Below, one piece after another: positions 3,615-28,129 of a stretch of 64,000 nucleotides of DNA (the first letter of the stretch is position 1; the number at the start of each line of letters is the position of its first letter). Source of the DNA: Advenella sp. FME57 (GTDB lineage: Bacteria; Pseudomonadota; Gammaproteobacteria; Burkholderiales; Burkholderiaceae_B); assembly GCF_014897675.1 (NCBI RefSeq), contig NZ_JABUXU010000005.1, positions 1-64,000 on the forward strand, written 5' to 3'. Both the position numbers and the translations under genes were made by a program. The notes beneath the pieces are model-generated. The model saw only the letters and a program-made list of their open reading frames with translations. It made no database searches and was not told the origin of the DNA.

Positions 3615-3725
3615 TGAAGCCGCTATTTATAAAACTGCAAACGGGTGTACTGTGCTGCAAAACATACACAAATTACATCAAATGGGGCGAGGTCTGCTGA
3701 TATGATGATATTCATTGAACCCACC

Positions 3726-3749: not shown

Positions 3750-3778
3750 TCACTGAAAACTCTGGCAACAGGCACATT

Positions 3779-5026: not shown

Positions 5027-5045
5027 TAGCCTGATGGCTACGCAG

Positions 5046-5621: not shown

Positions 5622-5640
5622 ATCCGCCTCCTGCTTTGAC

Positions 5641-6414: not shown

Positions 6415-6455
6415 TATGTGCTCCCTGACTCGTCGAGTCATTCTGGATAATGCAA

Positions 6456-7121: not shown

Positions 7122-7167
7122 GTCTGTCTCCCGTTTCCGTACCGCAAAGTGGTACGTTAAGGACATT

Positions 7168-8403: not shown

Positions 8404-8433
8404 TTTCCAATTGACATAGTGATAACGGTAGCG

Positions 8434-8464
8434 AAAAAAAGACAGGCGGTGCGCCTGTCTTTTT
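8434..8464. terminator. Bidirectional rho-independent terminator
   Basis: GACAGGCG and CGCCTGTC form a perfect 8-bp stem with a GTG loop, flanked by seven A on one side and five T on the other. It ends the TRAP operon transcript on the minus strand, just past the dctM stop at 8510. Confidence 0.9.
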
Positions 8465-8509
8465 AACGGAAACGGCAGATCAGTATTTCGTTACTTCATC
8501 AATATTTCG

Positions 8510-9787: not shown

Positions 9788-10332
9788 TTGACCTCCTGGT
9801 CGATCATAGAGGTGTCATCACTTGCGTGCTTGAGCGCTTCCTCGGCTTCATCGCCAAGTAGCTGGGCGCGGCGACCCCGCAGCATCTCGAGCAGAATTTC
9901 AGCAAAACGTATGAATAAAAGTGCGAAACCTACCGGCAACACCAGTCGCGGGATCCACTGAGGAACGGGCATATCCTGGGCAAGAATGCCGATGGTGTAC
10001 ATTTTGTCCACGTAAATCCAGGCGCCGTAGAACACGATCACGGTATAGATCAGGCACAGTACGCAGGCCGCAATGCCGGTGACGCGTGCGGCCTTTTTAG
10101 GCAGGGCCTTGACCAGCGCATCGACCCCAATGTGCGCCTTGATCCGCACGCCATAGGACAGGCCCAGAAAGATCAGTCCACCGAAGATGAACATAGCCAG
10201 TTCAAGCGCCCAGGTAAAACTGTAGTTGAATACGTAGCGCGCTATGACCTGAGCGAAGGTAATCAGCGTCATGGCGGCCAGCAGAAAGGCGATCAGTCCT
10301 TCCTCAAGCCGATGAAACCAGTTAGCGTTCAT
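9784..10332 (-). CDS. dctQ: TRAP transporter small permease (DctQ)
   Basis: 182 residues with four membrane helices, matching the DctQ family: LEEGLIAFLLAAMTLITFAQVIARYVFNYSFTWALELAMF, then GVRIKAHIGVDALV. It bridges the large permease and the periplasmic receptor. The start at 10332 (MNANWFHRLEEG) is fixed by AAAGGAG ten bases upstream. The charged C-terminal tail (EEALKHASDDTSMIDQEVK) is cytoplasmic. It lies between dctP and dctM in one operon. Confidence 0.92.
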   Translation of the reverse strand: MNANWFHRLEEGLIAFLLAAMTLITFAQVIARYVFNYSFTWALELAMFIFGGLIFLGLSYGVRIKAHIGVDALVKALPKKAARVTGIAACVLCLIYTVIVFYGAWIYVDKMYTIGILAQDMPVPQWIPRLVLPVGFALLFIRFAEILLEMLRGRRAQLLGDEAEEALKHASDDTSMIDQEVK

Positions 10333-10446
10333 TTGTGATACTCCTTTTTGAACCCGTAAAAGCCTGTCGGTCATACAATTATCCATGCAACCACTGCCAG
10401 CCCGAATGTCGGGCGGGCAAGCGGTCAGCGTAAAAGAAAATACAAT

Positions 10447-11595
<1,149 letters not shown>

Positions 11596-14453: not shown

Positions 14454-15004
14454 AAATCACCACCAGACCGATTACGTTGACCATCAACGGAAAGAAACAG
14501 GGTCCGCTCGATATTGCCGAAGGCATGATGATGATCGACTTCCTGCATGAATACGTGAACCTGACTGGCTCACGTCTTGGGTGTGGTCAGGGTGTTTGTC
14601 ATGCCTGCGTCGTTATTGAAGACCAGCCCGACGGCAGTAGCCAGGAGACGCGAACCTGTATCACCGGAGCCCATTATTTCGATGGCAAGGCGATCCGTAC
14701 CGTGGAAGGGCATGCTGCGCTCAATGACCAGGGCGAAGAAGTCCCGTCGCCCGTGCAACAGGCCTTTATGGATCACTACAGCTTCCAGTGTGGCTACTGC
14801 ACGCCAGGGTTTGTGAACGCCGCGACGGTGTTCATTGAAGGGCTCAAGCGCAACCCCATTGCCAGGGATGAGCTGGAAAACGCGATCCTCAAGGCAATGA
14901 ATAATCACATATGTCGTTGCACGGGCTATGTCCGCTACTATGAAGCGGTGCGTGACCTGGTCCTTAAGACGCCAGGCCTGATCAGGGAGACAAATAATGG
15001 CTAA
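14450..15004 (+). CDS. 2Fe-2S subunit of the molybdenum hydroxylase
   Basis: 184 residues with both iron-sulfur domains of the xanthine dehydrogenase family small subunit. The plant-type cluster is ligated by Cys45, Cys50, Cys53 and Cys70 (LGCGQGVCHAC and TRTC). The helical cluster uses CGYCTPG (Cys114, Cys117) and CRCTGY (Cys155, Cys157). It passes electrons from the Mo centre toward the cytochrome. No signal peptide is present, so it probably travels with the Tat-signal subunit. It overlaps the large-subunit stop by four bases and the next gene by eight. Confidence 0.95.
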   Translation: MKITTRPITLTINGKKQGPLDIAEGMMMIDFLHEYVNLTGSRLGCGQGVCHACVVIEDQPDGSSQETRTCITGAHYFDGKAIRTVEGHAALNDQGEEVPSPVQQAFMDHYSFQCGYCTPGFVNAATVFIEGLKRNPIARDELENAILKAMNNHICRCTGYVRYYEAVRDLVLKTPGLIRETNNG

Positions 15005-16247
15005 AAGACGCTATCTTCCGGCCCTGTTTCTGATTGCAGTTGTGTTGCTGATAATTGTTGCGATCTTGTGGTGGCGTGAAAATCGCAGTAATGATAACCC
15101 CGTTCAGAAGGTTTCGGCCACGGATGAACAGATCGAGCGCGGACGCTATGCTGCCAGGGCGGCAGACTGCGCCGCCTGTCATACCGTTGAAGGCGGTGGC
15201 CTGTTTGCCGGCGGCTTTCCCATGGAAACACCCTTTGGGACCGTGCATGGGAGCAACATCACGCCCTCGGCCGACTATGGTATTGGTCGCTGGACCCGGG
15301 AAGACTTTTACCGCGCAGTCAGGGAAGGTATAACGCCTGGCGGGCGGCATCTGTATCCGGCGATGCCGTACAACTCTTATTACATGATGAGTGATCAGGA
15401 CCTGGATGATATCTATGCCTATCTGATGACCAGACCGGCCATCGAGGTGCCAACGCCCCAGAATGACCTGCCGTTTCCGTTTAATCAACGCTTTCTGATG
15501 ATCGGCTGGAACCTGCTGTTTCAGAACAAGGATCCGCTGCCGGCTGTCTCTTCAGGGGACTCCGAATTATGGGTGCGGGGGCGCTATCTGACAGATGTGA
15601 TGGGGCACTGCGCCGAATGTCATACGCCACGCGGCATGTTCGGCCAGATGGATCTGGCCCAATCACTCAAAGGGGGCACCCTGGGGCGCTTCAAGGCAGC
15701 GGACATCACGCCGACCGCATTGGCAGAGCGAGGCTGGACTCCCGATGACCTGGGGCAATTTCTGGCTACCGGCACCGCCCCGCAAGGCTCTGCCTTCAGC
15801 GAGATGCATATGGTGGTGGCCCTTAGCACGCAGTATCTGACAAAAGACGATATGAAGGCCATGACTACGTATCTGATGGGTGATAAACCACCGCCACCCA
15901 AAGTGGCGCAATTGACACCAGGCGGCGATCAGGGGAGAGTGCAGTACCTGAATCTTTGTGCTGGCTGTCACGGTATCTCCGGCGAAGGCAAACCGAATGT
16001 CGCGCCGGCGATGGCAGGCAATGCAACGATCCGTCAGGCCGATGGCACCAACCTGATCGCGTCGATTCTTGATGGTCTGCCCGAGCAGGCGTTCCCCGGC
16101 GACGGCAACATGCAAAGCATGCCTGGGTTTGCCCGCAAGCTGAACGATCAGCAGATGGCCGAGCTGGTCAATTACACCCGTACTACCTGGGGAGGTTTGC
16201 CAGGGGATATCACGGCTGCGCAGATTGGCGCTTTGCGCGAGCATTGA
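14997..16247 (+). CDS. Triheme cytochrome c, electron acceptor of the Mo hydroxylase
   Basis: 416 residues with an N-terminal membrane anchor (LFLIAVVLLIIVAILWW) and three c-type heme motifs: CAACH near residue 58, CAECH near 203 and CAGCH near 320. The first two domains resemble those of gluconate and alcohol dehydrogenase cytochromes (GSNITPSADYGIGRWTREDF, RYLTDVMGHCAECHTPRG). It should take electrons from the 2Fe-2S subunit to the quinone pool or a terminal oxidase. The gene starts within the end of the 2Fe-2S gene, which marks one operon. Confidence 0.92.
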   Translation: MAKRRYLPALFLIAVVLLIIVAILWWRENRSNDNPVQKVSATDEQIERGRYAARAADCAACHTVEGGGLFAGGFPMETPFGTVHGSNITPSADYGIGRWTREDFYRAVREGITPGGRHLYPAMPYNSYYMMSDQDLDDIYAYLMTRPAIEVPTPQNDLPFPFNQRFLMIGWNLLFQNKDPLPAVSSGDSELWVRGRYLTDVMGHCAECHTPRGMFGQMDLAQSLKGGTLGRFKAADITPTALAERGWTPDDLGQFLATGTAPQGSAFSEMHMVVALSTQYLTKDDMKAMTTYLMGDKPPPPKVAQLTPGGDQGRVQYLNLCAGCHGISGEGKPNVAPAMAGNATIRQADGTNLIASILDGLPEQAFPGDGNMQSMPGFARKLNDQQMAELVNYTRTTWGGLPGDITAAQIGALREH

Positions 16248-16266: not shown

Positions 16267-16452
16267 GGCAATAGCAGCATCAGGCTGAGCGTCGGCCCGT
16301 GCTGCGAGACAGGACGGCGAATGCCCGGCGACGCAATCAGCCCAGCGGCTGTCGGTCGGCTGGCGCCAGATATATACTTTACTATCGTAGCCGGGCATTT
16401 GCATTTCAACTGAAATTACTGCGTTGGTCGATATCAGCAAAGGAGAACGTTG

Positions 16453-17111
16453 ATGAGAAAGTCATTGTTGGCGCATTTGTGAGTGTGGACGGGGTCATGC
16501 AGGCACCGGGCGGTCCGCAGGAAGACCCGGTGGGCGGATTCCGGTATGGCGGCTGGCTGATTCCCTATTTTGATGAATCACTGGGTGTCAAGGTCGGAGA
16601 AATCTTCGCCCGTCCATTTGATTTGCTGCTTGGGCGAAAAACCTATGATATTTTTGCTGCCCATTGGCCGTATGTTGGCCCGGAAGAGCCGTTAGGCGCA
16701 TTGTTCGACCAGATAGAAAAATACGTTGCTACACGTAATGAAAATTTCAGGCCGGACTGGCAGAACAGCCAGGTGCTGGGCTCTGATGCGGTGGCGGCTG
16801 TGCGCAAACTGAAAGAACAGGACGGGCCGGATCTGCTTACTCAGGGGTCTACAGATTTTCTGCAAACCCTGCACGCACATGATCTGGTCGATGAAATGTA
16901 TATCATGATATTTCCGCTGGTTCTAGGCAAAGGCAAAAGGCTGTTTGCAGAAGGGGCGCAGCCGGCGGCATTTGACTTGTTAAGCACGCAGGCGTCCGAT
17001 AGCGGTGTCATTGTCAACCACTATGCGCGCGCCGGCAATATCGAAACGGGCTCGTTCGCTGCCGAGAACCCTTCGCCAGCCGAATTGGAACGACGCAAAC
17101 ATCTCAGTTGA
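16453..17111 (+). CDS. RibD/dihydrofolate-reductase-like protein, frameshifted near start
   Basis: The body reads KVIVGAFVSVDGVMQAPGGP and continues through FDLLLGRKTYDIFAAHWPYV, LLTQGSTDFLQTLHAHDLVD and IFPLVLGKGKRLFAEG, a full DHFR/RibD C-terminal-type reductase of about 218 residues. The only start with a ribosome site (AAAGGAG, ATG at 16453) is out of frame. It reads ATG AGA AAG TCA and stops after eight codons. One extra A in the AAA run at 16458-16460 would give M-R-K-V-I-V-G, the usual family start. The upstream extension of the in-frame ORF to 16299 has no family character. It is either a real frameshift or a sequence error. Confidence 0.75.
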
Positions 17112-17562
17112 TCATTAACAAGGTTATCCGGGCGCGAACTGGTCGCCGCCACGGCGTGGCGAACAGACAGATTTTAGTGCATATACGGTCAAAGCAGCCA
17201 AGGCTGCGCAGATTGAATGGTTATGCAATGAGCCTTCATCCTAGACCGTAATGCTTCTGAACTGCGCCGGAGCGACCGACCACCGGACAAGGCCATTGCC
17301 CCATACGGGCCGATGGGAAAAACAAAAAGCCCGGATCAGGGCTACGCAGCCGTGCCCTGATATCGCACATAGGAATGCTGGAAGCGGCAGTACGCCAGCT
17401 GGCTAAACATTTATTAACGTTTTCCCTTATTGCATCTGTGATAGCGCTCGTTGTACCTTAATAATTAATTGAGTGTTTAATTATTTATTCATCCGATCCC
17501 TTCGAATCGAATCCGGGAATGCGTTTGTGCGCAATCGCCAGCCATTATTGTTGGAGTGCTTT
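17112..17562 (+). other. Intergenic leader before the Liv-type operon
   Basis: No gene is seen in this 450-base stretch. It contains a stem-loop with arms ATCAGGGC (17335-17342) and GCCCTGAT (17354-17361), and an AT-rich palindrome at 17460-17485 close to the transporter start. The promoter of the Liv-type operon should lie in its last 150 bases. Confidence 0.5.
17460..17485. promoter_or_regulatory. AT-rich palindrome upstream of the Liv-type operon
   Basis: AATAATTAA and TTAATTATT are perfect 9-bp inverted arms separated by TTGAGTGT. The overlapping pattern TAATTAATT-N5-TTTAAT recurs upstream of the nicC-like gene at 22207-22226. The site is a candidate operator shared by the transporter and catabolic operons, perhaps for the TetR protein encoded at 26248. 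Confidence 0.5.
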
Positions 17563-18699
17563 ATGAAATATCTCACATTATGTATCAGTGGATTAATGCT
17601 TGTCAGCGGTGCGGCGGTTGCTGCGGAACCTGCCGAGCCTATCAAGATCGGCGTGATCCAGCCGTTGACCGGCTCGGTTGCCTATAACGGGCAGGCCTAT
17701 GTGAAAGGCGCCAAGCTTGCCGTTGCGCAACGCAACGCGCAAGGCGGCATCAAGGAGCGCCAGGTTCAATTGCAAATAGAGGACGGCCAGTGCCAGCCGG
17801 CAAACTCGGTCAATGCAGCGGAAAAGCTAATTCAGCGCAATAAAGTGCCTGTGCTTGCCGGGGCGTTCTGTAGCTCGGCCACCGCCGCGGTCATGTCGGT
17901 TGCCGAAAAATACAAAATACCGCTGTTATCGGGCGTCTCTTCCAAGGCAGACCTGACTGATAAAGGCATGAAATATTTTTTCCGCTCAGCAGAAACCGAC
18001 AGATTGATGGCCAGGACGTTTAGCAAGATACTGGCTGACGATCTACAACTCAAAACAGTGGCATATATCGGCGTCAATGATGACTGGGGGCGCGGCGGTG
18101 TGGAAGATTTCGAAAAGGATCTGAACGCGTTGGGCGTCAAATCTGTCATGAAGGAATACTTCGATCATGGAACGACCGATTTTTATACGCTGTTGACCAA
18201 ACTGCGAGCACTTAAACCTGACGGTGTATTCGTGGCGGCCGAAACGCAGGATGGCTCCATCCTGGTCAAACAGCTCAAAGAATTCGGTATTGAAACCAAA
18301 GTGTTTGGCGTCGGCTCATGGGCGACCGCCGATTTTATCGGTTTGACCGGCGAAGCATCGGAAGGCATTTATGCTGCGGTACCTTATGTTTCCAATATGA
18401 AGGGCGAGCGCAATGCCGGGTTTGTCGAAAGCTACCAGAAAGAGTACAAGCAGCTCCCGGGTAAGTACGATGCGTCAGGCTACAACGCCATGAACATACT
18501 GATGCAGGCGATCGAGCGCGCGGGTTCCGATGAGCCAGAAAAAATACGTGATGCACTATACAAGACGGACTATGCAGCGCCTAACGGACGATTCCAGTTC
18601 ACCGAAAAAGGCGAGGGCTACGGCTTTGATACCGTACTGGTGCAAATCCAGGGAGGCAAGACACATGTGGTCACTCAGGCTCGTACCGAGAAGCCGTAA
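17563..18699 (+). CDS. ABC transporter substrate-binding protein, Liv type
   Basis: 378 residues with a clear Sec signal peptide (CISGLMLVSGAAVAA before EPAEPIKIG). The mature part is a type I periplasmic binding fold of the LivJ/AmiC class: IGVIQPLTGSVAYNGQAYVKGA, LQIEDGQCQPANSVNAAEKL and VGVNDDWGRG-like YIGVNDDWGRGGVEDFEKD. It captures the substrate for the LivHMFG parts encoded next. The start at 17563 follows TTGGAG. The nic genes immediately downstream of the transporter suggest that an aromatic or pyridine carboxylate is the ligand, not an amino acid. That is an inference from context. Confidence 0.9.
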   Translation: MKYLTLCISGLMLVSGAAVAAEPAEPIKIGVIQPLTGSVAYNGQAYVKGAKLAVAQRNAQGGIKERQVQLQIEDGQCQPANSVNAAEKLIQRNKVPVLAGAFCSSATAAVMSVAEKYKIPLLSGVSSKADLTDKGMKYFFRSAETDRLMARTFSKILADDLQLKTVAYIGVNDDWGRGGVEDFEKDLNALGVKSVMKEYFDHGTTDFYTLLTKLRALKPDGVFVAAETQDGSILVKQLKEFGIETKVFGVGSWATADFIGLTGEASEGIYAAVPYVSNMKGERNAGFVESYQKEYKQLPGKYDASGYNAMNILMQAIERAGSDEPEKIRDALYKTDYAAPNGRFQFTEKGEGYGFDTVLVQIQGGKTHVVTQARTEKP

Positions 18700-18731
18700 T
18701 TATTTCGGGATAACAAAATAAGGAAACCGGT

Positions 18732-19604
18732 ATGGAGTTGTTACCGCAGTTTATCGCCAACGGGCTGGTGATCGGGTCATTTTATGCATTGTCTGCACTG
18801 GGTCTGACACTCATTCTGGGTTTGATGCGTGTCGTCAATTTTGCGCATGGTGAATTGTACATGGTCGGCGGCGTTATGGGGTGGTGGGCTACGACACGCC
18901 TGGGGCTTGATTTCTTTTCAGGCCTGCTGCTTGTCGCAGTTGTACTGGGCACGTTCGGTTGGTTGATTGACCGATTCCTGATTGAGCGAATACGCGACCA
19001 GGGTGAAGAGCCCGGGATTCTGTTGACTATCGGGCTTTCGATTTTCCTGGCCAATACCGCCTTGCTTCTGGTTGGCACCGCGCCCCTGAAAATAGAATCA
19101 CCCATGGCTGGAGGCCCGCTCTTTCTTGGCCCGATCGTGCTGACCAAGGCACGCCTGTTTGCTGTTGCGGTCAGTATCGTTTTGATGATTGTCACGTATC
19201 TGGTTATCCAGAAAACCCGGCTGGGCCGTGCGATGCGGGCGACGTTTCAGGACCCGATGGCTGCAAAACTGGTAGGGATCCGTACCGCCAGTATCTATGC
19301 CGGTACGTTTGCTATGGGAACGGTGATTGCCGCCATGGCGGGAATGCTGCTTGGCTCCATTTATTCCACCCAGGTGTCCATCGGCGGATTGGTAAGCATG
19401 AAAGCCTTTGTGGTCGTCATTCTTGGGGGCATGGGCAGCTTTGCCGGCGCGATCGTGGGCGGCTTGCTGCTGGGCCTTGCCGAAGCATTGTGGGGCGGCT
19501 ACGTTGCCACAGGGTGGGTGGATATTATCGGTTTCATACTGGTGATTCTGACCCTGCTGTTTCGCCCTTATGGACTGTTTGTTAAACGCGCGGAGAGAGC
19601 ATGA
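18732..19604 (+). CDS. livH: Branched-chain-type ABC permease LivH
   Basis: 290 residues and about eight membrane helices. The family opening GLVIGSFYALSALGLTLILG, the RVVNFAHGELYMVG segment and the EAA-like region FVVVILGGMGSFAGAIVGGL are all present. It forms the translocation pore with LivM. AGGAAACC lies just before the ATG. It overlaps the livM gene by four bases. Confidence 0.92.
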   Translation: MELLPQFIANGLVIGSFYALSALGLTLILGLMRVVNFAHGELYMVGGVMGWWATTRLGLDFFSGLLLVAVVLGTFGWLIDRFLIERIRDQGEEPGILLTIGLSIFLANTALLLVGTAPLKIESPMAGGPLFLGPIVLTKARLFAVAVSIVLMIVTYLVIQKTRLGRAMRATFQDPMAAKLVGIRTASIYAGTFAMGTVIAAMAGMLLGSIYSTQVSIGGLVSMKAFVVVILGGMGSFAGAIVGGLLLGLAEALWGGYVATGWVDIIGFILVILTLLFRPYGLFVKRAERA

Positions 19605-20596
19605 AGATTCAACGCAATTGCCTGACGGCATTCATGCTGCTGGCAGCGGTACTGCCATTTGTCATAAACGATCAATACATTCTGCATGTGGCCATCATTG
19701 TGATGTTCTATGCGGTATTGGCAACAAGTCTGAACCTTGTGGTGGGCTATGTTGGTGAGTTTTCCCTGGGACATACGGCATTTCTGGGGACCGGAGCGTA
19801 TGCGGCAGCACTGCTTTCGACCCAGGCAGGCTGGCCAATGTGGGCTACGATCCCTGCTGCCGGGTTGTGCGCCGCTGTCATGGGAACAATTATCGGCGCC
19901 ATCACATTGCGATTGCACGGGCCGTTTTTCGTCATCATTACCCTATCATTTTCGGAAGTATTGCGGCTGATTGCCAACAACTGGGTCGCAGTCACAAAGG
20001 GGCCGATGGGCATTGCCGGGGTGCCACAGCCAGCGTTTCTGGCACAGATAGACAATCTGGCCGGCAAACACTTTTATTACGGTATTGCGTGGCTGCTGCT
20101 GGCGATTGCCTTATATCTGGCATACCGTTTTGTGAACTCCAATGCCGGGCGCGCTGCGGTGGCTGTCCGGGAAAACAGGTATGTTGCGCAGTCCATCGGC
20201 ATTCGTCCGCTGAACTATTCCATGATGGCGCTGGTGCTGGGCGCTTTCCTCAGTGGTACTGCAGGGGGGTTCTATGCGCATTACATTTCATTTGTAGGGC
20301 CGGAGATGTTCCGGTTTGCGTTCATGGTCACCATGATCACGATGGTGCTCATCGGTGGCAAGGGTACGCTGATCGGCCCATTGGTGGGCGCGCTGCTGGT
20401 CACGTTTCTTGAAGAGTATCTTAGAGAAGCACAGGAATTGCGATTGTCATTGTTCGGCCTGATCGTTATTGCGATTGTGCTATTCATGCCCAATGGAATC
20501 ATGGGATTTGTTACGCGGCATCGTGAAAAACGGGCGCAGTGCCAGGCAACACCGGTGGGCATGCCTGTAAGTGGTACGAAAAGGAGATCGGCATGA
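19601..20596 (+). CDS. livM: Branched-chain-type ABC permease LivM
   Basis: 331 residues with about ten helices. The family markers are LATSLNLVVGYVGEFSLGHTAF near the N terminus and, in the second half, RAAVAVRENRYVAQSIGIRP and TMVLIGGKGTLIGPLVGALL, the cytoplasmic coupling loop. The start overlaps the livH stop in an ATGA and the end overlaps the livG start in the same way, so the operon is tightly coupled. The short basic tail after the last helix is not unusual. Confidence 0.92.
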   Translation: MKIQRNCLTAFMLLAAVLPFVINDQYILHVAIIVMFYAVLATSLNLVVGYVGEFSLGHTAFLGTGAYAAALLSTQAGWPMWATIPAAGLCAAVMGTIIGAITLRLHGPFFVIITLSFSEVLRLIANNWVAVTKGPMGIAGVPQPAFLAQIDNLAGKHFYYGIAWLLLAIALYLAYRFVNSNAGRAAVAVRENRYVAQSIGIRPLNYSMMALVLGAFLSGTAGGFYAHYISFVGPEMFRFAFMVTMITMVLIGGKGTLIGPLVGALLVTFLEEYLREAQELRLSLFGLIVIAIVLFMPNGIMGFVTRHREKRAQCQATPVGMPVSGTKRRSA

Positions 20597-21402
20597 TGCA
20601 AACGCACGCGCAAAACGGGCAGCCCAGCGGCGTACTGCAGGTCAATGGGTTGTGCAAGTCATTCGGCGGTATACATGCAGTCAAGGACATCAGTTTCAAT
20701 GTGAATCGCGGAGAAATTGTCGGCTTGATCGGACCCAATGGCGCCGGCAAAACGACATGTTTCAATCTGATCACTGGCTTTTATGCTCCAACCTCCGGGA
20801 CGGTTCACTTTGATGAACAGGAGGTAACCGGTGAAAAGCCATATAGCATGGCGCGCCGAGGCATTGTACGCAGCTTTCAGAAAACCAATATCCTGAAAAC
20901 ACTTTCAGTATTTGAGAACGTGCTGACTGGCCACTACATGGAGGCACGCCAGCCGGTGTGGAAAACGTTTTTTCCTACAGCAAAGGTACGTCAGACGGAA
21001 GCAGCAATCCGCGACAGTGCAGCGCGCATCGTCAATACGATTGGGTTGTCGCGGCACATGAACGTACCTGCAGCCCAGCTGTCCTGCGGCGAATTGCGTT
21101 TACTGGAGGTGGCGCTGGCATTAGCAGCGAAGCCCAGAATTCTGATGCTGGATGAGCCAGCTGCCGGCCTCAATAGCCACGAGGCCCGGGAGTTCGGCAA
21201 TGTGCTAAGAAAATTGATTGGCGATCTGGTCGAATCTATTCTGATCGTCGAACACAACATGGGGCTGGTCATGAGCGTATCCGATCGTGTGGTTGTCATG
21301 CATTTCGGTCAGAAGCTGGCCGAGGGAACACCGGAGCAGGTGCAGAAAAACGCGAAAGTGGTGGAAGCCTATCTGGGCGCAAGCGCAAAGGAACGATCAT
21401 GA
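20593..21402 (+). CDS. livG: ABC transporter ATP-binding protein LivG
   Basis: 269 residues with a complete nucleotide-binding domain: Walker A GPNGAGKTT, Q-loop in RSFQKTNILKTLSVFENV, signature LSCGELRLLEVALAL, Walker B ILMLDEPAAGL and the H-loop IVEHNM. The length and the long insert after the Q-loop are typical of LivG. The start at 20593 follows AAGGAG; a GTG further upstream in frame lies inside livM and is less likely. It pairs with LivF to power the importer. The signature is LSCGE in place of the usual LSGG or LSYG, a small variation. Confidence 0.92.
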   Translation: MMQTHAQNGQPSGVLQVNGLCKSFGGIHAVKDISFNVNRGEIVGLIGPNGAGKTTCFNLITGFYAPTSGTVHFDEQEVTGEKPYSMARRGIVRSFQKTNILKTLSVFENVLTGHYMEARQPVWKTFFPTAKVRQTEAAIRDSAARIVNTIGLSRHMNVPAAQLSCGELRLLEVALALAAKPRILMLDEPAAGLNSHEAREFGNVLRKLIGDLVESILIVEHNMGLVMSVSDRVVVMHFGQKLAEGTPEQVQKNAKVVEAYLGASAKERS

Positions 21403-22166
21403 ATGCAGTCACGCTGCCACAGACGTCTGATCTGGATAATAAGTGTGCACCGGCAAACCCGATGCTTGAGATCCGGAACCTGCACGTCAGCTACGGAAAG
21501 ACCCAGGCATTGCATGGGGTCGATCTGATGGTTCAACAGGGAGAGGTTATTGCCCTGATCGGTGCCAACGGCGCCGGGAAAAGCACAACGTTGCGGGCGA
21601 TTTCCGGGCTGCTCAAGCCCACGCAAGGGCAGATTATTTACCAGGGAAATAATATAGCCGGTGTTTCTGCCGACCGCATCGTCGCCCGAGGCATCGCCCA
21701 GTCGCCTGAGGAACGCCATATTTGGCCGACCATGACGGTATACGAAAACCTGACTTTGGGTGCATATCTGTGTAAAAAAGAGGCAGAAGTGGAGCGGCGC
21801 GTTGCGTTGGTGTATGACCGATTTTCCCGCCTCAAGGAAAGACATCGCCAACTGGCAGGCACGCTTAGCGGGGGCGAACAGCAGATGCTGGCAATCGGCC
21901 GCGCCTTGATGTCGGAGCCCTCACTGTTGCTATTGGATGAACCCAGTCTTGGGTTGAGTCCGCGCATGGCTGAGGAGGTCTTTGAGTTTGTCAAAGAAAT
22001 CAACACGCATGGAGTGACCGTTGTCCTGGTTGAGCAGAATGTGTATAACGCGCTGTCGGTCTCTACACGTGCTTATGTATACGAAACCGGAAAAGTGGTT
22101 GCCGAAAGGGAAGCGGCGGGCCTGTTGGACGATCCTGAGCTGCTGAGCGCATATTTGGGAGCCTGA
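21399..22166 (+). CDS. livF: ABC transporter ATP-binding protein LivF
   Basis: 255 residues. Walker A GANGAGKSTT, the LivF-type IAQSPEERHIWPTMTVYENL, signature LSGGEQQMLAIGRAL, Walker B LLLLDEPSLGLSP and H-loop VVLVEQNV are all in order. About 20 extra residues precede the usual family start at MLEIRNLHVSYGK, so translation could also begin at the internal ATG near 21462. It is the last gene of the five-gene importer and is followed by a weak hairpin and then the catabolic operon. Confidence 0.92.
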   Translation: MNAVTLPQTSDLDNKCAPANPMLEIRNLHVSYGKTQALHGVDLMVQQGEVIALIGANGAGKSTTLRAISGLLKPTQGQIIYQGNNIAGVSADRIVARGIAQSPEERHIWPTMTVYENLTLGAYLCKKEAEVERRVALVYDRFSRLKERHRQLAGTLSGGEQQMLAIGRALMSEPSLLLLDEPSLGLSPRMAEEVFEFVKEINTHGVTVVLVEQNVYNALSVSTRAYVYETGKVVAEREAAGLLDDPELLSAYLGA

Positions 22167-22176
22167 CCAATCAGGC

Positions 22177-22202
22177 ATGTGGCGGGCAGTGCCGCATCTT
22201 TT
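22177..22202 (+). terminator. Possible terminator after livF
   Basis: ATGTGGC and GCCGCAT form a stem with one mismatch around GGGCAGT, followed by CTTTT. It is weaker than a textbook terminator, and read-through into the nic genes is possible. Confidence 0.4.
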
Positions 22203-22206
22203 AAAT

Positions 22207-22226
22207 TAATTAATTAGTTATTTAAT
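22207..22226 (+). promoter_or_regulatory. AT-rich motif upstream of the nicC-like gene
   Basis: TAATTAATT, five bases, then TTTAATAA. The same TAATTAATT-N5-TTTAAT arrangement occurs at 17462-17481 ahead of the Liv-type operon. It may be a common regulator site or an UP-like promoter element. Confidence 0.45.
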
Positions 22227-22231
22227 AAATA

Positions 22232-22251
22232 ATGTGTAGTCAATTACACAT
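22232..22251. promoter_or_regulatory. Inverted repeat ahead of the nicC-like gene
   Basis: ATGTGTA and TACACAT are perfect 7-bp arms around GTCAAT, 24 bases before the start codon. The position next to the ribosome site suggests a repressor operator overlapping the transcription start. Confidence 0.55.
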
Positions 22252-22275
22252 GTTGTTGAAACTGGAGTGGAATGT

Positions 22276-23505
22276 ATGTCGAAAACTTTGAAAGTAGGAA
22301 TCATCGGGGGCGGTATTGGTGGCGCAGCACTGGCCCGCGCCTTGCAGCAGCACGGTATAGAGGCATGCGTTTTTGAGCGCGCGCCTGCCTTTGGCGAAAT
22401 TGGCGCCGGCGTGCAGATGACGCCGAACGCGGTCAAAGTACTCAGAGCGCTGGGATTGCAGACGGACCTTGACCAGATCGGGTTTTTGCCCAAGGCCATG
22501 GTGGGGCGCAACTGGGATGATGCACGTGAGCTGTTTCGCACCCCTTTACAGCAGATGTGTCGGGACAATTTCGGAGCCGATTTTCATCATGTACATCGTG
22601 CGGACTTGCATGCCATTTTGTGCCAGGACATTGCCTCGGATCACGTGACATTCAACACGACCTGCATCGGTATCACGCAGAATGCCGACTCTGCCACGGC
22701 ACACTTTGATGATGGTTCGACTTTTGAGGCCGATATTATCGTGGGGGCCGACGGCATTCATTCGGCCGTGCGCGATTCGCTCTGGGGCAAGGATCAGGCC
22801 AGCTTTACCGGCCATATGTGCTGGCGTGCACTGGTGCCGGTAGAGCAACACCCATTGCCTTTTGTGAGCCCGGATGCGTCATTCTGGTTTGGTCCCAAGG
22901 CTCATATCGTTACTTACTACGTCAAGGGAGGAGCCGCTGTCAATATTGTCGCGGTCAACGAAAGTGCAGATTGGGTTGCAGAGTCGTGGACCGAGCCGAG
23001 TACGCGCGAAGAGTTACTGGCTGCCTATGACGGTTGGCATCAGAACATCATCGACCTGCTGGAGCGCACCGATCCTGATCAAACCTTCAAATGGGGACTC
23101 TTTGACCGGGATCCCATGAAGCAATGGGCCAAAGGCCGGGTGACGCTGCTTGGGGACGCGGCGCATCCAATGCTGCCCTTTTTGTCACAGGGTGCAGCCA
23201 TGGCGCTGGAAGATGCTTTCGTGCTGGCCGAGATGATTGCTCACTTTCCGGCAGATCATGAAGCAGCCCTCAGGTGCTATGAAGCCGAACGGCTTGCACG
23301 TACAGCACGGGTTCAGCTTGAAGCACGCGAGCGCGGCCGTACGTACCATCTGTCCTCGCCTGAAGAGCAACGGGCACGTGACGAGGCGCTCAAAAAGCAA
23401 CAGGCTGAAAATCCCAACGCTGTCGGCATCAAGGCCGAATGGGTTTATGAATACGACGCGACCCGTTGCAAAGAGCGTATCGGCACGATGGAAACGGTTG
23501 CATGA
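22276..23505 (+). CDS. nicC: FAD-dependent monooxygenase, NicC-like
   Basis: 409 residues of the class A flavin monooxygenase family. The dinucleotide fold is VGIIGGGIGGAALARAL, the second FAD motif is ADIIVGADGIHSAVRDSL, and the third is GRVTLLGDAAHPMLPFLSQGA. Its place directly before nicD, nicX and nicF indicates the decarboxylating hydroxylation of 6-hydroxynicotinate to 2,5-dihydroxypyridine. The sequence also resembles salicylate and 3-hydroxybenzoate hydroxylases, and the protein is slightly longer than the Pseudomonas putida NicC I recall (about 380). The C-terminal stretch after the GD motif is Glu/Arg rich. The start at 22276 follows GGAG by eight bases. Confidence 0.8.
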   Translation: MSKTLKVGIIGGGIGGAALARALQQHGIEACVFERAPAFGEIGAGVQMTPNAVKVLRALGLQTDLDQIGFLPKAMVGRNWDDARELFRTPLQQMCRDNFGADFHHVHRADLHAILCQDIASDHVTFNTTCIGITQNADSATAHFDDGSTFEADIIVGADGIHSAVRDSLWGKDQASFTGHMCWRALVPVEQHPLPFVSPDASFWFGPKAHIVTYYVKGGAAVNIVAVNESADWVAESWTEPSTREELLAAYDGWHQNIIDLLERTDPDQTFKWGLFDRDPMKQWAKGRVTLLGDAAHPMLPFLSQGAAMALEDAFVLAEMIAHFPADHEAALRCYEAERLARTARVQLEARERGRTYHLSSPEEQRARDEALKKQQAENPNAVGIKAEWVYEYDATRCKERIGTMETVA

Positions 23506-23626
23506 GAATGCGTCGGCACACATTCAAATGCGTTGTTAATTGTGTGAAAAATGTGAGGGTGCAGCAACGACGCGATCGATGCTGAGCAGGCTTTTACTTT
23601 GCCATGAACACCAGGAAACAAATTCG

Positions 23627-24457
23627 ATGACAAATACTTATCTTTATGGCGCCCACGTTTGGGCCAATGACATACGTCAGCACTATCTGCGTTTTGGCGG
23701 ACAGACTGATGGCCGGGCTGAGCGTGATCCGGTAATCGTGATTCCAGGTATTACCAGCCCGGTTGAAACATGGCGTTTTGTCGCAGAGCGGCTGGGACGG
23801 TATTTCGACACTTACGTGCTGGATGCTAGAGGCCGGGGGTTGAGTCAGGCCAATGACGAGCTGGATTACAGCCTTGATGCAATGGCAGCCGATGTCATTG
23901 CCTTCGTGCAGGGGCTGAACCTGCCGACGTACTCGATCGTCGGGCACTCCATGGGCGGGCGTATTGGCATACGCGTGGCGGGACAGCGGCCCGCAGGACT
24001 GACGCGTTTGGTCGCGGTGGACCCACCGGTTTCCGGCCCGGGCCGGCGCCCATATCCGGCAAACCTTGCCTGGTATGTGGATTCGATCAGGCAGGCACAG
24101 CGGGGAATAAGCGTTGAGCAGATGCGCCAATACTGTCCGACCTGGACCGAAGAGCAACTGCGGCTGCGCGCTCAATGGCTGCATACCTGCAATGAGCGTG
24201 CCATCACGACAAGCTTTCATGCATTTCAGACGGATGACATTCATGTCGATGCGGCTCGGATCAATATCCCGGTTCTACTGATGACAGCGGAGCGGGGTGA
24301 TGTCATTCGTGATAACGAGGTTGAACAGTTGCGGCAGCTATTGCCGTCCATGCAGTGCTTGCGGGTTAAAGACGCCGGCCATATGATTCCCTGGGATAAC
24401 GAAGCAGGTTTTTATCGGGCTTTTGGGGGGTTTTTGGGCCATCCTCTGGACCATTGA
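23627..24457 (+). CDS. nicD: N-formylmaleamate deformylase
   Basis: 276 residues of the alpha/beta hydrolase fold. The nucleophile elbow GHSMGG gives Ser108, LVAVDPPVSGPG gives Asp132, and AGHMIPWD gives His252. These have the same spacing as the triad described for P. putida NicD (Ser101, Asp125, His245). The DPPVSGPGRRPYPANLAWYV stretch is characteristic of NicD. It hydrolyses N-formylmaleamate to maleamate and formate in the cytoplasm. The start at 23627 (MTNTYLYGAH) follows CAGGAAA; the open frame continues upstream without family similarity. It lies between nicC and nicX. Confidence 0.9.
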   Translation: MTNTYLYGAHVWANDIRQHYLRFGGQTDGRAERDPVIVIPGITSPVETWRFVAERLGRYFDTYVLDARGRGLSQANDELDYSLDAMAADVIAFVQGLNLPTYSIVGHSMGGRIGIRVAGQRPAGLTRLVAVDPPVSGPGRRPYPANLAWYVDSIRQAQRGISVEQMRQYCPTWTEEQLRLRAQWLHTCNERAITTSFHAFQTDDIHVDAARINIPVLLMTAERGDVIRDNEVEQLRQLLPSMQCLRVKDAGHMIPWDNEAGFYRAFGGFLGHPLDH

Positions 24458-24494
24458 TGAACGTGATTTTACAAGGCAGAAACAGGGAGATACT

Positions 24495-25553
24495 ATGGCT
24501 GTGCGCGATACAGATCTGATCCAGGCGTGGATCAATGTACTGAAATTATCAAATCTGAAAAAGGGGGATGCGGTTACTGTGCTGACCAGTGATCATACCC
24601 ATCCGCAAACACTGCGCTGCGCCTTGACCGCTGCGACCATGTTGGGCGCGATTGTCAGCCGCCTGGATCTGCCACCCGTAAACGCAGAAAAATCGTTAAG
24701 TCGAGACCCGCTGGCCTATCTTGGCACGACGCCGCTTACCGGCAATAAACCGGCGATTGCCGCATTAAAGGCAAGTGACCTGGTCCTGGACCTGATGACG
24801 CTGCTGTTTTCACCGGAACAGCATGACATTTTGCAAGGAGGCGGTAAAATCCTGCTGGCCGTGGAGCCGCCGGAGGTTCTCTTGCGGATGGAGCCGACCC
24901 AGGAAGACTATGTGCGGACCCAGGCCGCCGCCGCATTACTGAAAGAGGCTGGGCAAATGCGCGTGACATCTGCAGCAGGAACCGATTTGCGCTGTCCGCT
25001 GGGCCAGTACCCCTGCGTATCTGAATATGGCTTTGTCGATGCGCCGGGTCGTTGGGATCATTGGCCTAGCGGCTTTACCTTTACCTGGCCCAATGAGGGA
25101 GAAACCCAGGGCACCATCGTGCTATCAAAAGGCGATATTCTGCTGCCAATGAAATCCTATGTGGGCGAGACAATCACCCTGACCGTAAAAAACGGGTTTG
25201 TGACCGGCATAACTGGTGGGGTTGAGGCGCAAATGCTATCGGAATACATAGAATCGTTTGCCGATCCTGAAGCCTACGCCATTTCCCATATTGGATGGGG
25301 TTTGCAGAAACGTGCCTACTGGTCCACATTGGGCTTATACGACAGAGAGGCGACCATAGGCATGGATGCCCGTGCAGTAAGCGGCAATTTTCTGTTTTCT
25401 CTGGGCCCGAACAACGAGGCGGGCGGCAGCCGAACGACAGCGTGCCATATTGATGTGCCGATGAGGCGATGCAATGTTTATCTGGACGATCTGCAGGTGG
25501 TTGCCGATGGCAGGGTGGTTGAGTCCACGCTGACGCAGCGGGAGAGCGCGTAA
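24495..25553 (+). CDS. nicX: 2,5-dihydroxypyridine 5,6-dioxygenase
   Basis: 352 residues. It belongs to the small ring-cleaving iron dioxygenase family of NicX. His265 (ISHIGWGL), His318 and Asp320 (TTACHIDVPM) fall at the same numbers as the iron ligands reported for the P. putida enzyme. It opens 2,5-dihydroxypyridine with O2 to N-formylmaleamate, the substrate of the gene just upstream. The start at 24495 has CAGGGAG at good spacing. Its stop overlaps the nicF start by one base (TAATG), showing coupled translation. Confidence 0.93.
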   Translation: MAVRDTDLIQAWINVLKLSNLKKGDAVTVLTSDHTHPQTLRCALTAATMLGAIVSRLDLPPVNAEKSLSRDPLAYLGTTPLTGNKPAIAALKASDLVLDLMTLLFSPEQHDILQGGGKILLAVEPPEVLLRMEPTQEDYVRTQAAAALLKEAGQMRVTSAAGTDLRCPLGQYPCVSEYGFVDAPGRWDHWPSGFTFTWPNEGETQGTIVLSKGDILLPMKSYVGETITLTVKNGFVTGITGGVEAQMLSEYIESFADPEAYAISHIGWGLQKRAYWSTLGLYDREATIGMDARAVSGNFLFSLGPNNEAGGSRTTACHIDVPMRRCNVYLDDLQVVADGRVVESTLTQRESA

Positions 25554-26188
25554 TGAGCGAGGAAAATCAGGTGTTCAAGCGCCAGGGTTTTGGTACAGAT
25601 GTGGATCTGGCGCCGCCCTTTGGCCTGCTTATCGTCGACTTTGTCAATGGATTTGCCGACCCTGGGGTTTTTGGCGGTGGCAATATCGCAAATGCAATTG
25701 CTTCAACACAGCCGCTGTTGCAACACGCAAGACGCAGCGGCTGGCCTGTCGCCCATAGCCGGATCGTGTTTGCGGATGATGGCGCGGATCACAATGTTTT
25801 CAGTCGTAAAGTGCCAGGGATGCTAACGCTTCGGGAAAACAGTCATGCCAGTGCGATTGTGCCCGAGCTGCAGCCGCAAGCAGGTGAGTTGGTCGTACGC
25901 AAGACGGTCCCGTCCGCGTTTTTCGGGACGATGCTGGCAGCCTGGCTTGCGCAGCGCGGCGTGAGCACGCTGCTGGTGGCTGGCTGCGTGACCAGCGGTT
26001 GCGTACGTGCCAGCGTTGTGGATGCCATGTCGATGGGTTTCACACCGCTAGTGGTGGCCGATTGTGTGGGCGATCGCGCCATTGGGCCACATGACGCCAG
26101 TTTGTTTGATATGCAGCAGAAATATGCCATGGTGATGGACCGGCTGGCTGCGCTTGCACTTTGCAGCCAGGCCGTGCTGGGCAGTTGA
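25553..26188 (+). CDS. nicF: Maleamate amidohydrolase
   Basis: 211 residues of the isochorismatase-like cysteine hydrolase fold. The catalytic triad is visible as Asp29 (LLIVDFVNGF), Lys117 (VVRKTVPSAFFGT) and Cys150 (GCVTSGCVRA, with the usual cis-peptide region before it). It converts maleamate to maleate and ammonia. It is translationally coupled to nicX. The next pathway enzyme, maleate cis-trans isomerase (NicE), is not encoded in this window, so maleate must be handled elsewhere in the genome. Confidence 0.9.
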   Translation: MSEENQVFKRQGFGTDVDLAPPFGLLIVDFVNGFADPGVFGGGNIANAIASTQPLLQHARRSGWPVAHSRIVFADDGADHNVFSRKVPGMLTLRENSHASAIVPELQPQAGELVVRKTVPSAFFGTMLAAWLAQRGVSTLLVAGCVTSGCVRASVVDAMSMGFTPLVVADCVGDRAIGPHDASLFDMQQKYAMVMDRLAALALCSQAVLGS

Positions 26189-26247
26189 CGCGCGGCTTAG
26201 CTGGTTGGTGGCCACCCAAGGCCACCGCAAGAGCCAGCGCTGATGCT

Positions 26248-26940
26248 TTATTGTGCCTCCAATCCGCCAACCATGAACCGGGTTACCTGGTCGATCAACT
26301 CGTCCGTATCATTGACATCGTAAAGTCCTTTGGGCGTCATTTCCTGCATCCTGTGCGTGTCGGAAAACGCATATAAATAGGTGCCGATCATGAAGGTTAC
26401 TCGCCAGCAGGCATCCAGTTCACTCAGTTTGGGCAATGCTTTTCTCAGTACTGCAACATAGCGCTGGGTTGAACCACCATAGGCCTCGGACCGAAGCGAG
26501 TAGGAAATTTCTGACGGCTCGGTATGAAGCCTGGCCTGCAACCGGAGAAATGCGCGCCCCTGGAAGGTACTTCGCAACGACAGCACCGGCTCCAGAAACG
26601 TTCTTACAATATCCTTAACTTGAGGAGTCTTCTGCCTTTCCAGCGCTTCAAGGCGTTCCAGGCGTTCCCGCGAGACCAGTTCGCTCCTGCGCAAAAACAC
26701 GGCCTGGAAAAGTCCGAATTTGGAACCGAAATAATAGCTGATCAATGCCTGAGTCACATTTGCCTGGTCGGCAATCTCTCGCAATGCCGTCCCCGCATAA
26801 CCCTTGTCTGAAAAGATGACTTCGGCTGCATCCAGGATTTCGTCCCGCACAACACTCGCCCCTTCGGGACGACCGGGGCCATTGATTTTTCGGGGCCGTC
26901 GTACTGAGGTTTTTTTTGCAAGCTGCTCTGTTTTTTTCAT
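26248..26940 (-). CDS. TetR family regulator of the pyridine locus (probable)
   Basis: 230 residues. The first about 28 are unusually basic (KKTSVRRPRKINGPGRPEG) with a GRP core like an AT-hook. The TetR HTH follows: DEILDAAEVIFSDKGYAGTA, LREIADQANVTQALISYYFGSK. The C-terminal domain is helical. It faces the end of nicF and is divergent from the SDR gene at 27305. P. putida uses a MarR protein (NicR) and a TetR protein (NicS) for nic control; this one could play the NicS part. No ribosome site precedes the ATG. The AT-rich sequence ahead of it (TTAATTAAAT) resembles the motifs upstream of the Liv-type operon and nicC. Confidence 0.8.
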   Translation of the reverse strand: MKKTEQLAKKTSVRRPRKINGPGRPEGASVVRDEILDAAEVIFSDKGYAGTALREIADQANVTQALISYYFGSKFGLFQAVFLRRSELVSRERLERLEALERQKTPQVKDIVRTFLEPVLSLRSTFQGRAFLRLQARLHTEPSEISYSLRSEAYGGSTQRYVAVLRKALPKLSELDACWRVTFMIGTYLYAFSDTHRMQEMTPKGLYDVNDTDELIDQVTRFMVGGLEAQ

Positions 26941-27304
26941 AATTGATCGATTAATTAAATATTGGTTCGTACCTGTTCGTTCCGGATCGGCTCGCCAACG
27001 AGCTCATGCACCATAAAATATCATAAATTGATCGGCTGTGAATACAATTCAGATCAAAGCGCACCAGTGGTGTGCGCGCACGGTTGCGTTGTCACGACAG
27101 CCGGTTGGCGCTTACGTTTGTCGAAAGCCCAGGTTACCGATGGTTGCTTGACGCCAGATCTTCTCATCTTTACGGCCTGTCTGGCCACGCAAGTATTGAT
27201 CGCCTATTTCGTTTATGATTTCCCATGCTCTGCACATCTGTCGCTTTTGCCCTGTGCAGATTGAATAACGTAAATGATATCAATAGCATGAAAAGGAAGC
27301 AGGT
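26941..27304. other. Divergent intergenic region, tetR to SDR gene
   Basis: No gene is seen. The first 22 bases (AATTGATCGATTAATTAAAT and on) are AT-rich and sit at the tetR promoter. Near 27058-27076 there are short inverted arms GCGCAC and GTGCGC. The last bases hold the AAAAGGAAGC ribosome site of the SDR gene. Confidence 0.4.
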
Positions 27305-28129
27305 ATGAATCTGGAAATAGCGGGCAAGTGGGCCCTGGTTTGTGGCGCCAGCAAAGGGCTGGGTTTTGGATGCGCCAAGGCGCTGGTGGATAACGGCGTC
27401 AATGTGGTCATTAATGCAAGGCGCGCCGAGGTGCTGCAAGCCGCAGCAAGTGAATTGGCTGCTCTGGCCGATACCGCGGCTAAACGCGATGGGTTTGCTG
27501 CGGCAAAAGTTATTTCCATTGCCTGCGATATCACAACTGTCGAAGGACGCGAGGCGGTATTCGGTGCCGCAGGCGGTCCTGGCAAGGATTTCGATATTGT
27601 GGTTACCAATGCAGGTGGACCTCCGCCGGGCGACTTTCGTGAATGGGAGCGTGACGCATGGATAAAGGCGATTGACGCCAATATGCTGACACCAATCGAA
27701 CTGATCAGGGCCACCGTCGATGGTATGGCATCACGCGGCTTCGGGCGTATCGTCAATATCACTTCAAGCGCCGTGAAAGCACCCATTGATATTCTGGGGC
27801 TGTCCAACGGTGCACGCTCGGGCCTCACAGGATTTGTTGCCGGTGTAGCGCGCTCGAGCATCGCGGAAAAGGGCGTGACCATTAACAATATTCTGCCCGG
27901 GAAATTTGCGACAGATCGCCTGAAAGGCAACATCAAAGTGACGGCTGCCAAATCAGGCAAGGACATGGACACGATCAGACAGGCCCAGCAGGCCGTCGTA
28001 CCAGCCAAGCGTTTTGGCCACCCTGACGAATTCGGCGCCCTGTGCGCCTTTTTGTGCAGCCAGCAAGCCGGTTATATCACGGGCCAGAACATGCTGATTG
28101 ACGGTGGTATGTACAGCGGCACGTTCTAA
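27305..28129 (+). CDS. SDR-fold protein lacking the catalytic Tyr and Lys
   Basis: 274 residues with an intact cofactor site (VCGASKGLGFG, residues 12-22) and the NAG motif (VVTNAGGPPPG). Ser154 of NITSSAVK is in place, but where classical SDRs have YxxxK this protein has Ser167 and Arg171 (LSNGARSGLTG). A branch of FabG-like SDRs is known to lack the tetrad, so it may still bind NAD(P). The end (GYITGQNMLIDGGMYSGTF) is normal. The start ATG follows AAAAGGAAGC. It is divergent from the TetR gene and may belong to the pyridine locus; its role is unknown. Confidence 0.85.
   Translation: MNLEIAGKWALVCGASKGLGFGCAKALVDNGVNVVINARRAEVLQAAASELAALADTAAKRDGFAAAKVISIACDITTVEGREAVFGAAGGPGKDFDIVVTNAGGPPPGDFREWERDAWIKAIDANMLTPIELIRATVDGMASRGFGRIVNITSSAVKAPIDILGLSNGARSGLTGFVAGVARSSIAEKGVTINNILPGKFATDRLKGNIKVTAAKSGKDMDTIRQAQQAVVPAKRFGHPDEFGALCAFLCSQQAGYITGQNMLIDGGMYSGTF

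Follow-up and report, generated by a model that had tools for sequence, protein, structure and literature searches.

The described gene clusters that most resemble the locus considered here share with it enzymes acting on 2,5-dihydroxypyridine. In the nic cluster of Pseudomonas putida the lower-pathway enzymes NicD, NicX and NicF occur together with NicAB, NicC and a carrier of the major facilitator superfamily (MFS). The pic cluster comprises PA dehydrogenase, a multi-part PicB and an amidohydrolase-family decarboxylase, PicC, and has in common with our locus the lower pathway from 2,5-dihydroxypyridine (PMC10142695). The nicotine clusters of Agrobacterium tumefaciens S33 combine 2,5-dihydroxypyridine genes with tetR genes and with ATP-binding cassette (ABC) transporter genes, the latter induced and of the putrescine/spermidine type, along with the first enzymes of nicotine breakdown (PMC5500553, PMC7688666). 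Our locus is a block of genes at positions 17563–26940 of a 64,000-nucleotide stretch of Advenella sp. FME57 (positions 1 to 64,000, forward strand, of contig NZ_JABUXU010000005.1 in assembly GCF_014897675.1; hereafter, the window). Like the nic cluster, it encodes NicD, NicX and NicF; unlike it, it lacks NicAB, NicC and an MFS carrier and has instead an ABC importer of the Liv (branched-chain amino acid) type, a TetR-type regulator and a flavin monooxygenase with Gln47 and Phe302. It differs from the S33 clusters in the type of its importer and in its first enzyme. With the hpa pathway of Alcaligenes faecalis JQ135, as that pathway is reported, it shares a single flavin monooxygenase that feeds 2,5-dihydroxypyridine to NicD-, NicX- and NicF-type enzymes. 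We consider it likely that the genome carries two independent modules for 2,5-dihydroxypyridine, a nicotinate-type cluster and, in parallel with it, this self-standing block, whose most likely substrate is 5-hydroxypicolinate.

The source genome comprises 4.74 Mb in 59 contigs, of which the window is the start of contig 4, and its nearest named relative, judged by NicX, is Advenella incenata DSM 23814 (98%). Genes for the receptor, permeases, ATPases, monooxygenase and NicD, NicX and NicF homologues run along the forward strand from 17563 to 26188, and a TetR-type gene follows on the reverse strand:

17463–17485, forward strand: operator-like site before the receptor gene, AATTAATTGAGTGTTTAATTATT (best match of the site matrix in the window, 30.3 bits)
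17563–18699, forward strand: periplasmic receptor of the Liv/HAAT type (Peripla_BP_6, 251 bits; signal peptide by eye; pocket positions unchanged across all 18 rows compared)
18732–19604, forward strand: LivH-type permease (BPD_transp_2, 124 bits)
19601–20596, forward strand: LivM-type permease (BPD_transp_2, 154 bits)
20593–21402, forward strand: LivG-type ATPase (ABC_tran and BCA_ABC_TP_C; first internal ATG at 20593)
21399–22166, forward strand: LivF-type ATPase (ABC_tran, 118 bits)
22208–22230, forward strand: operator-like site before the monooxygenase gene (second-best place of the matrix, 25.1 bits)
22276–23505, forward strand: group A flavin monooxygenase (FAD_binding_3), presumably HpaM-like and not NicC
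23627–24457, forward strand: NicD-type N-formylmaleamate deformylase
24495–25553, forward strand: NicX-type 2,5-dihydroxypyridine 5,6-dioxygenase
25553–26188, forward strand: NicF-type maleamate amidohydrolase
26248–26940, reverse strand: TetR-type regulator with C-terminal TetR_C_30
26938–26960, reverse strand: operator-like site overlapping the tetR start (17.6 bits, third among the separate places of the matrix and ahead of the next unrelated one at 14.2 bits)
27305–28129, forward strand: dehydrogenase of the short-chain dehydrogenase/reductase (SDR) family, a neighbour of the block and not part of its core

From the receptor gene to the NicF gene, successive intergenic gaps measure 32, −4, −4, −4, 109, about 120, 37 and −1 bases. 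All five importer parts are present in the order receptor, permease, permease, ATPase, ATPase, each above its Pfam cut-off, which bears out the view of the initial annotation that a full five-part importer lies upstream of the catabolic genes. That annotation had extended the region to 28129: its core genes stand, and the SDR gene falls outside the conserved block, which it accompanies at identities of 86% and above in Advenella alone (loci L019–L021), other SDR labels among the compared loci being just 26–32% identical to it. On the whole the initial annotation is partly confirmed, in that its gene parts are sound and one gene name, NicC, is wrong.

The name NicC had been given to the monooxygenase at 22276–23505, and we reject it because of the enzyme's low identity to NicC, its active-site residues, its place in a tree and its best solved relative. 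Over the compared stretch of P. putida NicC, the window enzyme is 36% identical and its group 33–38%, as against 81% for the genome's own NicC on contig 20 and 57–82% for other NicC rows. The active-site set of NicC, which we take to be His47, His211, Tyr215 and His302 (a numbering checked on the genome's own NicC), is represented in the window enzyme by Gln47, His210, Tyr214 and Phe302, so that two of the four residues are kept. In an alignment of relatives from the fetched loci, all four residues occur in 46 of 46 NicC rows (43 distinct sequences once gene repeats are set aside), and Gln47 and Phe302 in 47 of 47 rows of the monooxygenase group (28 distinct sequences), His211 and Tyr215 being kept in both groups. 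At NicC positions 47 and 302, the 3-hydroxybenzoate enzyme of this genome carries Gln and Tyr. The tree places all 43 NicC rows on one side of a branch with support of 100/100; the remaining 28 rows are not demonstrably a single clade, because the branch leading to the 3-hydroxybenzoate row is very long. Among NCBIfam families, the best match is 3-hydroxybenzoate 6-monooxygenase at 328 bits, below the cut-off of 459 bits, and the closest solved enzymes are, in order, tropone 2-monooxygenase (263 bits), NicC (233 bits) and decarboxylating vanillate 1-hydroxylase (229 bits). A structure model (predicted local distance difference test score, pLDDT, 85.6) returned fold neighbours at the level of the family, with no ligand singled out. 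Because the solved relatives include decarboxylating 4-hydroxybenzoate as well as vanillate 1-hydroxylases, the prediction that an HpaM-like enzyme would convert a hydroxypyridine carboxylate to 2,5-dihydroxypyridine and CO2 has counterparts within the family. Among 72,556 plasmid records, 24 also carry relatives of the monooxygenase at 38–61% identity, eight of them from Azospirillum, four each from Paracoccus and Neorhizobium, three from Caballeronia and the remainder from other sources.

Advenella sp. FME57 already possesses genes of the nicotinate type. At about 144–157 kb of contig 20 lie an MFS carrier, NicC with His47 and His302, a 977-residue open reading frame (ORF) that is partly cytochrome-like, genes for [2Fe-2S] and molybdopterin subunits, and copies of NicD, NicX and NicF that are 65, 72 and 69% identical to those in the window. 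The place and families of the molybdopterin, [2Fe-2S] and cytochrome subunits suggest that they constitute NicAB. It is contig 20, and not the block, that has the presumed NicAB and NicC linked to NicD, NicX and NicF. Eight genomes were tested for both enzymes: the block coexisted with NicC in four, and the other four (A. kashmirensis, Variovorax WDL1 and two Azospirillum) had no match at the level of NicC. The coexistence of NicC with this monooxygenase in half of these genomes argues that the two have different substrates.

Alcaligenes sp. SORT26 has three NicX genes. One lies with NicA, molybdopterin and cytochrome subunits (locus L131), the corresponding NicC (82% identical to that of Advenella sp. 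FME57) and MFS carrier (76%) being elsewhere (L147); another lies with PicC-like Amidohydro_2, Rieske oxygenase and reductase genes (L091), of which the latter two are probably parts of PicB; and the third belongs to a block like ours (L119), with a monooxygenase homologue of 61% identity and the same importer. A. incenata and Advenella sp. S44 likewise have three NicX genes each, one of those in A. incenata being of the pic type (L031). The Amidohydro_2, Rieske and reductase genes of the pic-type loci L031 and L091 set them apart from the block: when the 10 proteins encoded at 17563–28129 and 20 neighbours were scanned with Pfam, neither PicC (Amidohydro_2) nor a Rieske oxygenase was matched. 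The acids that A. faecalis JQ135 is reported to degrade are nicotinate, picolinate and 5-hydroxypicolinate (PMC10142695, PMC6460240). Because the three SORT26 modules match these three acids, the third module would, by elimination, serve 5-hydroxypicolinate. JQ135 reportedly makes 2,5-dihydroxypyridine from 5-hydroxypicolinate with the flavin monooxygenase HpaM (work attributed to Qiu and colleagues, 2018). In both 5-hydroxypicolinate and 6-hydroxynicotinate the hydroxyl group is para to the carboxylate-bearing carbon, so that ring hydroxylation at that carbon with loss of CO2 yields the same 2,5-dihydroxypyridine from either acid. Judging from gene content and sequence comparison, we favor 5-hydroxypicolinate as the probable substrate, in an hpa-type pathway with its own importer.

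Two side observations concern these parallel clusters. The pic-type cluster of A. incenata carries DctM and DctP, parts of a tripartite ATP-independent periplasmic (TRAP) carrier. Beside the nicotinate-type cluster (L016, 8708–13575) lie genes for a 3-hydroxybenzoate 6-monooxygenase (709 bits, over the cut-off), a TctC receptor, a gentisate-dioxygenase-like cupin, a fumarylacetoacetate hydrolase and a glutathione transferase.

A scan of named genomes for NicX loci (80 kept of 107 relatives) was classified by the presence of this monooxygenase (at least 55% identity), of NicC (at least 50%) and of the importer (at least three of five parts at 50% or more). This monooxygenase occurred at 21 loci, NicC at 42 and neither at 17; the importer accompanied the monooxygenase at 16 of its 21 loci and was present at none of the other 59 (Fisher p = 7.5e-13, which serves as a guide only, because the 16 loci are related and not independent). 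The order of the five importer genes is identical in the mapped loci of Advenella, Variovorax, Azospirillum, Alcaligenes and Eoetvoesiella. In Alcaligenes sp. SORT26, Eoetvoesiella caeni (L121) and genome G484 (L139), the monooxygenase gene does not precede NicD and comes after NicF; the same importer still leads the block, and TetR still follows it. Across 399 genomes of the order (cut-off 1e-100, with at most four candidates per genome scored for receptor and monooxygenase), close receptor matches (above 675 bits) were found in two, the source genome and G484, and close monooxygenase matches (above 715 bits) in the same two; ten more had weaker monooxygenase matches (338–373 bits) and no receptor match.

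Other carriers adjoin the enzymes elsewhere. Paenalcaligenes hominis (L120) has a TctC/TctA tripartite carrier beside the monooxygenase, and Pandoraea pneumonica (L124) an MFS protein after NicF; none of the genes at L045, L062 and L070, three Caballeronia loci, received an importer label, three ORFs of L070 being without a Pfam match; and two further loci (L122 and L123) combine the monooxygenase with TetR and have neither importer nor NicD, NicX and NicF adjoining. The change from ABC to tripartite to MFS carriers around the monooxygenase could mean that the type of carrier depends on the substrate of the enzyme. These comparisons suggest a module common to beta- and alphaproteobacteria, in which a conserved importer and pathway would serve a hydroxypyridine carboxylate, most likely 5-hydroxypicolinate. 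At L120, an asparaginase-family gene (8887–9894) lies between the tripartite carrier and the monooxygenase, where its product might cleave the amide of a carboxamide precursor. At L124, a Rieske/VanA_C oxygenase and an NMT1-type ABC importer (2991–8641) lie just upstream of a monooxygenase-NicE-NicD-NicX-NicF operon, possibly as the upper step for another pyridine.

The residues of the receptor argue against a plain amino-acid receptor and by themselves name no ligand. In an alignment with the leucine-binding protein, Ser79, Thr102, Tyr150 and Glu226 of that protein correspond to Ser104, Ser127, Trp175 and Gly251 of the receptor, and these receptor residues occur in 18 of 18 rows (the window and 17 loci, near-copies retained). 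Ser79 and Thr102 presumably hold the carboxylate of the amino acid and Glu226 its amino group. By this single pairwise alignment, the receptor thus has Gly in all 18 rows where a branched-chain amino acid receptor would place its acidic ligand. An AlphaFold model of the receptor (pLDDT 83.7) has the hydroxybenzoate-bound structures 4evq, 4ey3 and 4q6w within its first 50 fold neighbours, which again agree at the level of the family with no ligand standing out. These HAAT receptors, which according to their titles bind an aromatic acid, share the Liv-type fold; they differ from the block receptor in sequence (20–23% identity) and in that the partner pathway of the latter is one for a pyridine.

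The importer and the catabolic genes also appear to share their control. The pattern AATTAATTRRNNRTTTAATWA, drawn up from the two sites at 17463 and 22208, matches both without mismatch, and allowing up to two mismatches adds one place, which overlaps the second site (0.01 expected in shuffled sequence). The initial annotation had described a similar promoter motif for the importer, as these zero-mismatch matches confirm. A matrix built from three different receptor-upstream sites of Variovorax and Azospirillum, which were picked by eye with the window motif known, gave 17463, 22208 and 26938 as its three best separate places in the 64 kb. The first two precede the receptor gene and the monooxygenase gene and the third overlaps the start of tetR, and similar AT-rich stretches lie upstream in the Alcaligenes and Eoetvoesiella loci. 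In the scan, each of the 16 loci with the importer also has the TetR gene, at 58% identity or more. From the habits of its family, TetR would repress the importer, monooxygenase and tetR genes through these sites.

The identity of the lower enzymes is secure. NicX matches the solved P. putida NicX (7cn3) over its full length at 410 bits, NicD a solved deformylase (4l0c) at 296 bits and NicF the structure 3ot4 at 308 bits; the nine catalytic residues that had been named for them (His265, His318 and Asp320 in NicX; Ser108, Asp132 and His252 in NicD; Asp29, Lys117 and Cys150 in NicF) are each found in the translated genes. NicE gave no tblastn match in the window, and no Amdase match occurs on contig 4, all three Amdase-family genes of the genome being on other contigs. 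One of these, on contig 37, shares 62% identity with its NicE-like counterpart in the Variovorax operon, and both cysteine motifs, YACLVAIMA and LSACVQMPS, are retained. In Variovorax, Azospirillum, Caballeronia, Pandoraea and G484 a NicE-like gene forms part of the orthologous operon (the Pfam scan for the Amdase family having covered only the Variovorax protein, L022), and no match was found in loci L119–L123 or L126. The locus is accordingly not a complete operon from 2,5-dihydroxypyridine to fumarate, and the claim that it stops at maleate holds for the locus and fails for the genome: because of the NicE-like gene on contig 37, maleate need not be the end of the pathway.

Under the reading that we prefer, the Liv/HAAT-type importer would bring in a hydroxypyridine carboxylate; the flavin monooxygenase would hydroxylate its carboxylate-bearing carbon, freeing CO2 and giving 2,5-dihydroxypyridine; NicX would open the ring, NicD take off formate and NicF take off ammonia, leaving maleate; and the NicE-type isomerase from contig 37 would convert maleate to fumarate. 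The TetR-type regulator would repress its own gene along with those of the importer and monooxygenase, and the substrate or a product would relieve this repression.

Several observations weigh against this reading. The best solved match of the monooxygenase, tropone 2-monooxygenase, is not a pyridine enzyme. The pairing of receptor residues comes from one pairwise alignment at about 25% identity, and because Glu227 of the receptor sits at the place of Tyr202 of the leucine receptor, another mode of binding an ammonium group is possible. Judged by its sequence profile, the receptor comes closest to receptors for amino acids and urea (3td9, 149 bits; 8tg1, 148; 1usg, 142), the p-hydroxybenzoate receptor 4ey3 scoring 136, and the best fold neighbours of the receptor model are amino-acid receptors. 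Ten of the 16 linked loci are from Azospirillum or Roseomonas; the importer is missing at five of the 21 monooxygenase loci (one of which, L051, is a contig of 4.7 kb), as it is at L120, L122 and L123, outside the scan. As to substrate, the argument leans on the reported HpaM reaction and on SORT26 as a stand-in for JQ135, and the block enzyme is a presumed ortholog of HpaM.

The retention of fold, Pfam families and nearest sequences, all of them those of Liv importers, could mean that this is an ordinary amino-acid importer that came to lie beside the pathway by chance, a view that we find extremely improbable given the linkage (16 of 21 loci vs. none of 59), the same operator-like site at both promoters and Gly at the Glu226 position in every receptor row. 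Chance neighbourhood was rejected on the linkage in particular. The initial annotation had proposed dedicated ABC uptake of a pyridine acid, namely nicotinate, 6-hydroxynicotinate or another; the uptake part is supported by the conserved linkage, the shared operator-like sites and a receptor lacking the ammonium ligand, and the assignment to nicotinate or 6-hydroxynicotinate is not. For the block to be a nicotinate or 6-hydroxynicotinate pathway, its monooxygenase would have to be a divergent NicC and its importer would take up nicotinate or 6-hydroxynicotinate from other cells. The lower enzymes would be the same, NicC is the second-best solved relative, half of its active-site residues are kept, and a block lacking NicAB could live on external 6-hydroxynicotinate; yet Gln47 and Phe302 occur in 28 of 28 distinct sequences (H47Q being a studied variant of NicC, as the titles of PDB entries 8uiq and 8uiv indicate), the identity to P. 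putida NicC is less than half that of the genome's own His47/His302 enzyme, a nicotinate-type cluster, MFS carrier included, is already present on contig 20, and the block coexists with NicC in four of eight genomes and occurs without it in the other four. We regard this reading as unlikely.

Since 2,5-dihydroxypyridine is a shared hub and the nearest solved enzyme is a tropone monooxygenase, the monooxygenase and importer might serve another precursor of that compound, such as 2- or 3-hydroxypyridine, a different hydroxypicolinate or a ring bearing substituents. This seems unlikely when set against the match of the three SORT26 modules to the three acids of A. faecalis JQ135 and against a receptor whose carboxylate-binding hydroxyls are kept, which fits an acid.

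The enzymes of the block are known in kind, as probably is the pathway, and ABC genes beside a 2,5-dihydroxypyridine module, though of another ABC type, have already been described for nicotine breakdown in strain S33. The new elements are an importer of the Liv type, a regulator together with its sites, a residue signature that sets the monooxygenase apart from NicC, and the exchange of carrier types. A search confined to the open-access literature recognised no paper dealing with HpaM or with the import of pyridine acids by a Liv-type system. If the assignment to 5-hydroxypicolinate is true, a third branch into 2,5-dihydroxypyridine has its uptake, its regulation and its first enzyme all identified at once; pyridine acids would join the ligands of Liv-type importers, and ABC, tripartite and MFS carriers would have been swapped around one conserved catabolic core. 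The contrast of Gln47/Phe302 with His47/His302 offers a sequence marker against misnaming such monooxygenases NicC.

Upstream of the block, 11661–16247 (forward strand) encodes a molybdenum dehydrogenase: a molybdopterin subunit with a twin-arginine-like leader, a [2Fe-2S] subunit and a membrane-anchored cytochrome c (leader and anchor by eye). As a candidate NicAB of the block it was rejected, being missing in Advenella sp. S44 and parted from the block by CoA-transferase and carboxylase genes in A. kashmirensis. Where both were seen, it lies near the block only in Advenella; in Eoetvoesiella it is about 20 kb off on the same contig, which speaks against dismissing a role for it. Its large subunit was found in eight of the 399 genomes of the order, the source genome included (E 1e-100, with at most two candidates per genome scored), and in seven of 16 chosen monooxygenase-bearing genomes (E 1e-60), so that a loose functional link with the monooxygenase is possible, although the cut-offs differ. 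In the 20 kb surrounding the dehydrogenase in each of seven other genomes, no match to the pyridine-pathway queries was labelled, ORF picking there having missed some genes (at L140 and L143, the enzyme itself). A relay from periplasm to cytosol, in which the acid brought to the monooxygenase by the Liv-type importer would be the product of pyridine oxidation by the dehydrogenase outside the inner membrane, is very unlikely.

Divergent from the dehydrogenase genes, 8510–11517 (reverse strand) holds TRAP carrier genes (DctM, a probable small subunit and DctP), which occur without the dehydrogenase in Advenella sp. S44. Between the dehydrogenase and the importer, a reductase-like RibD_C gene (16299–17111, forward strand) is kept in A. 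incenata and A. kashmirensis. About 5.8 kb past the end of the window, contig 4 encodes a further [2Fe-2S] subunit of a molybdenum enzyme (69762–69983; L017), followed by an ORF of 802 residues.

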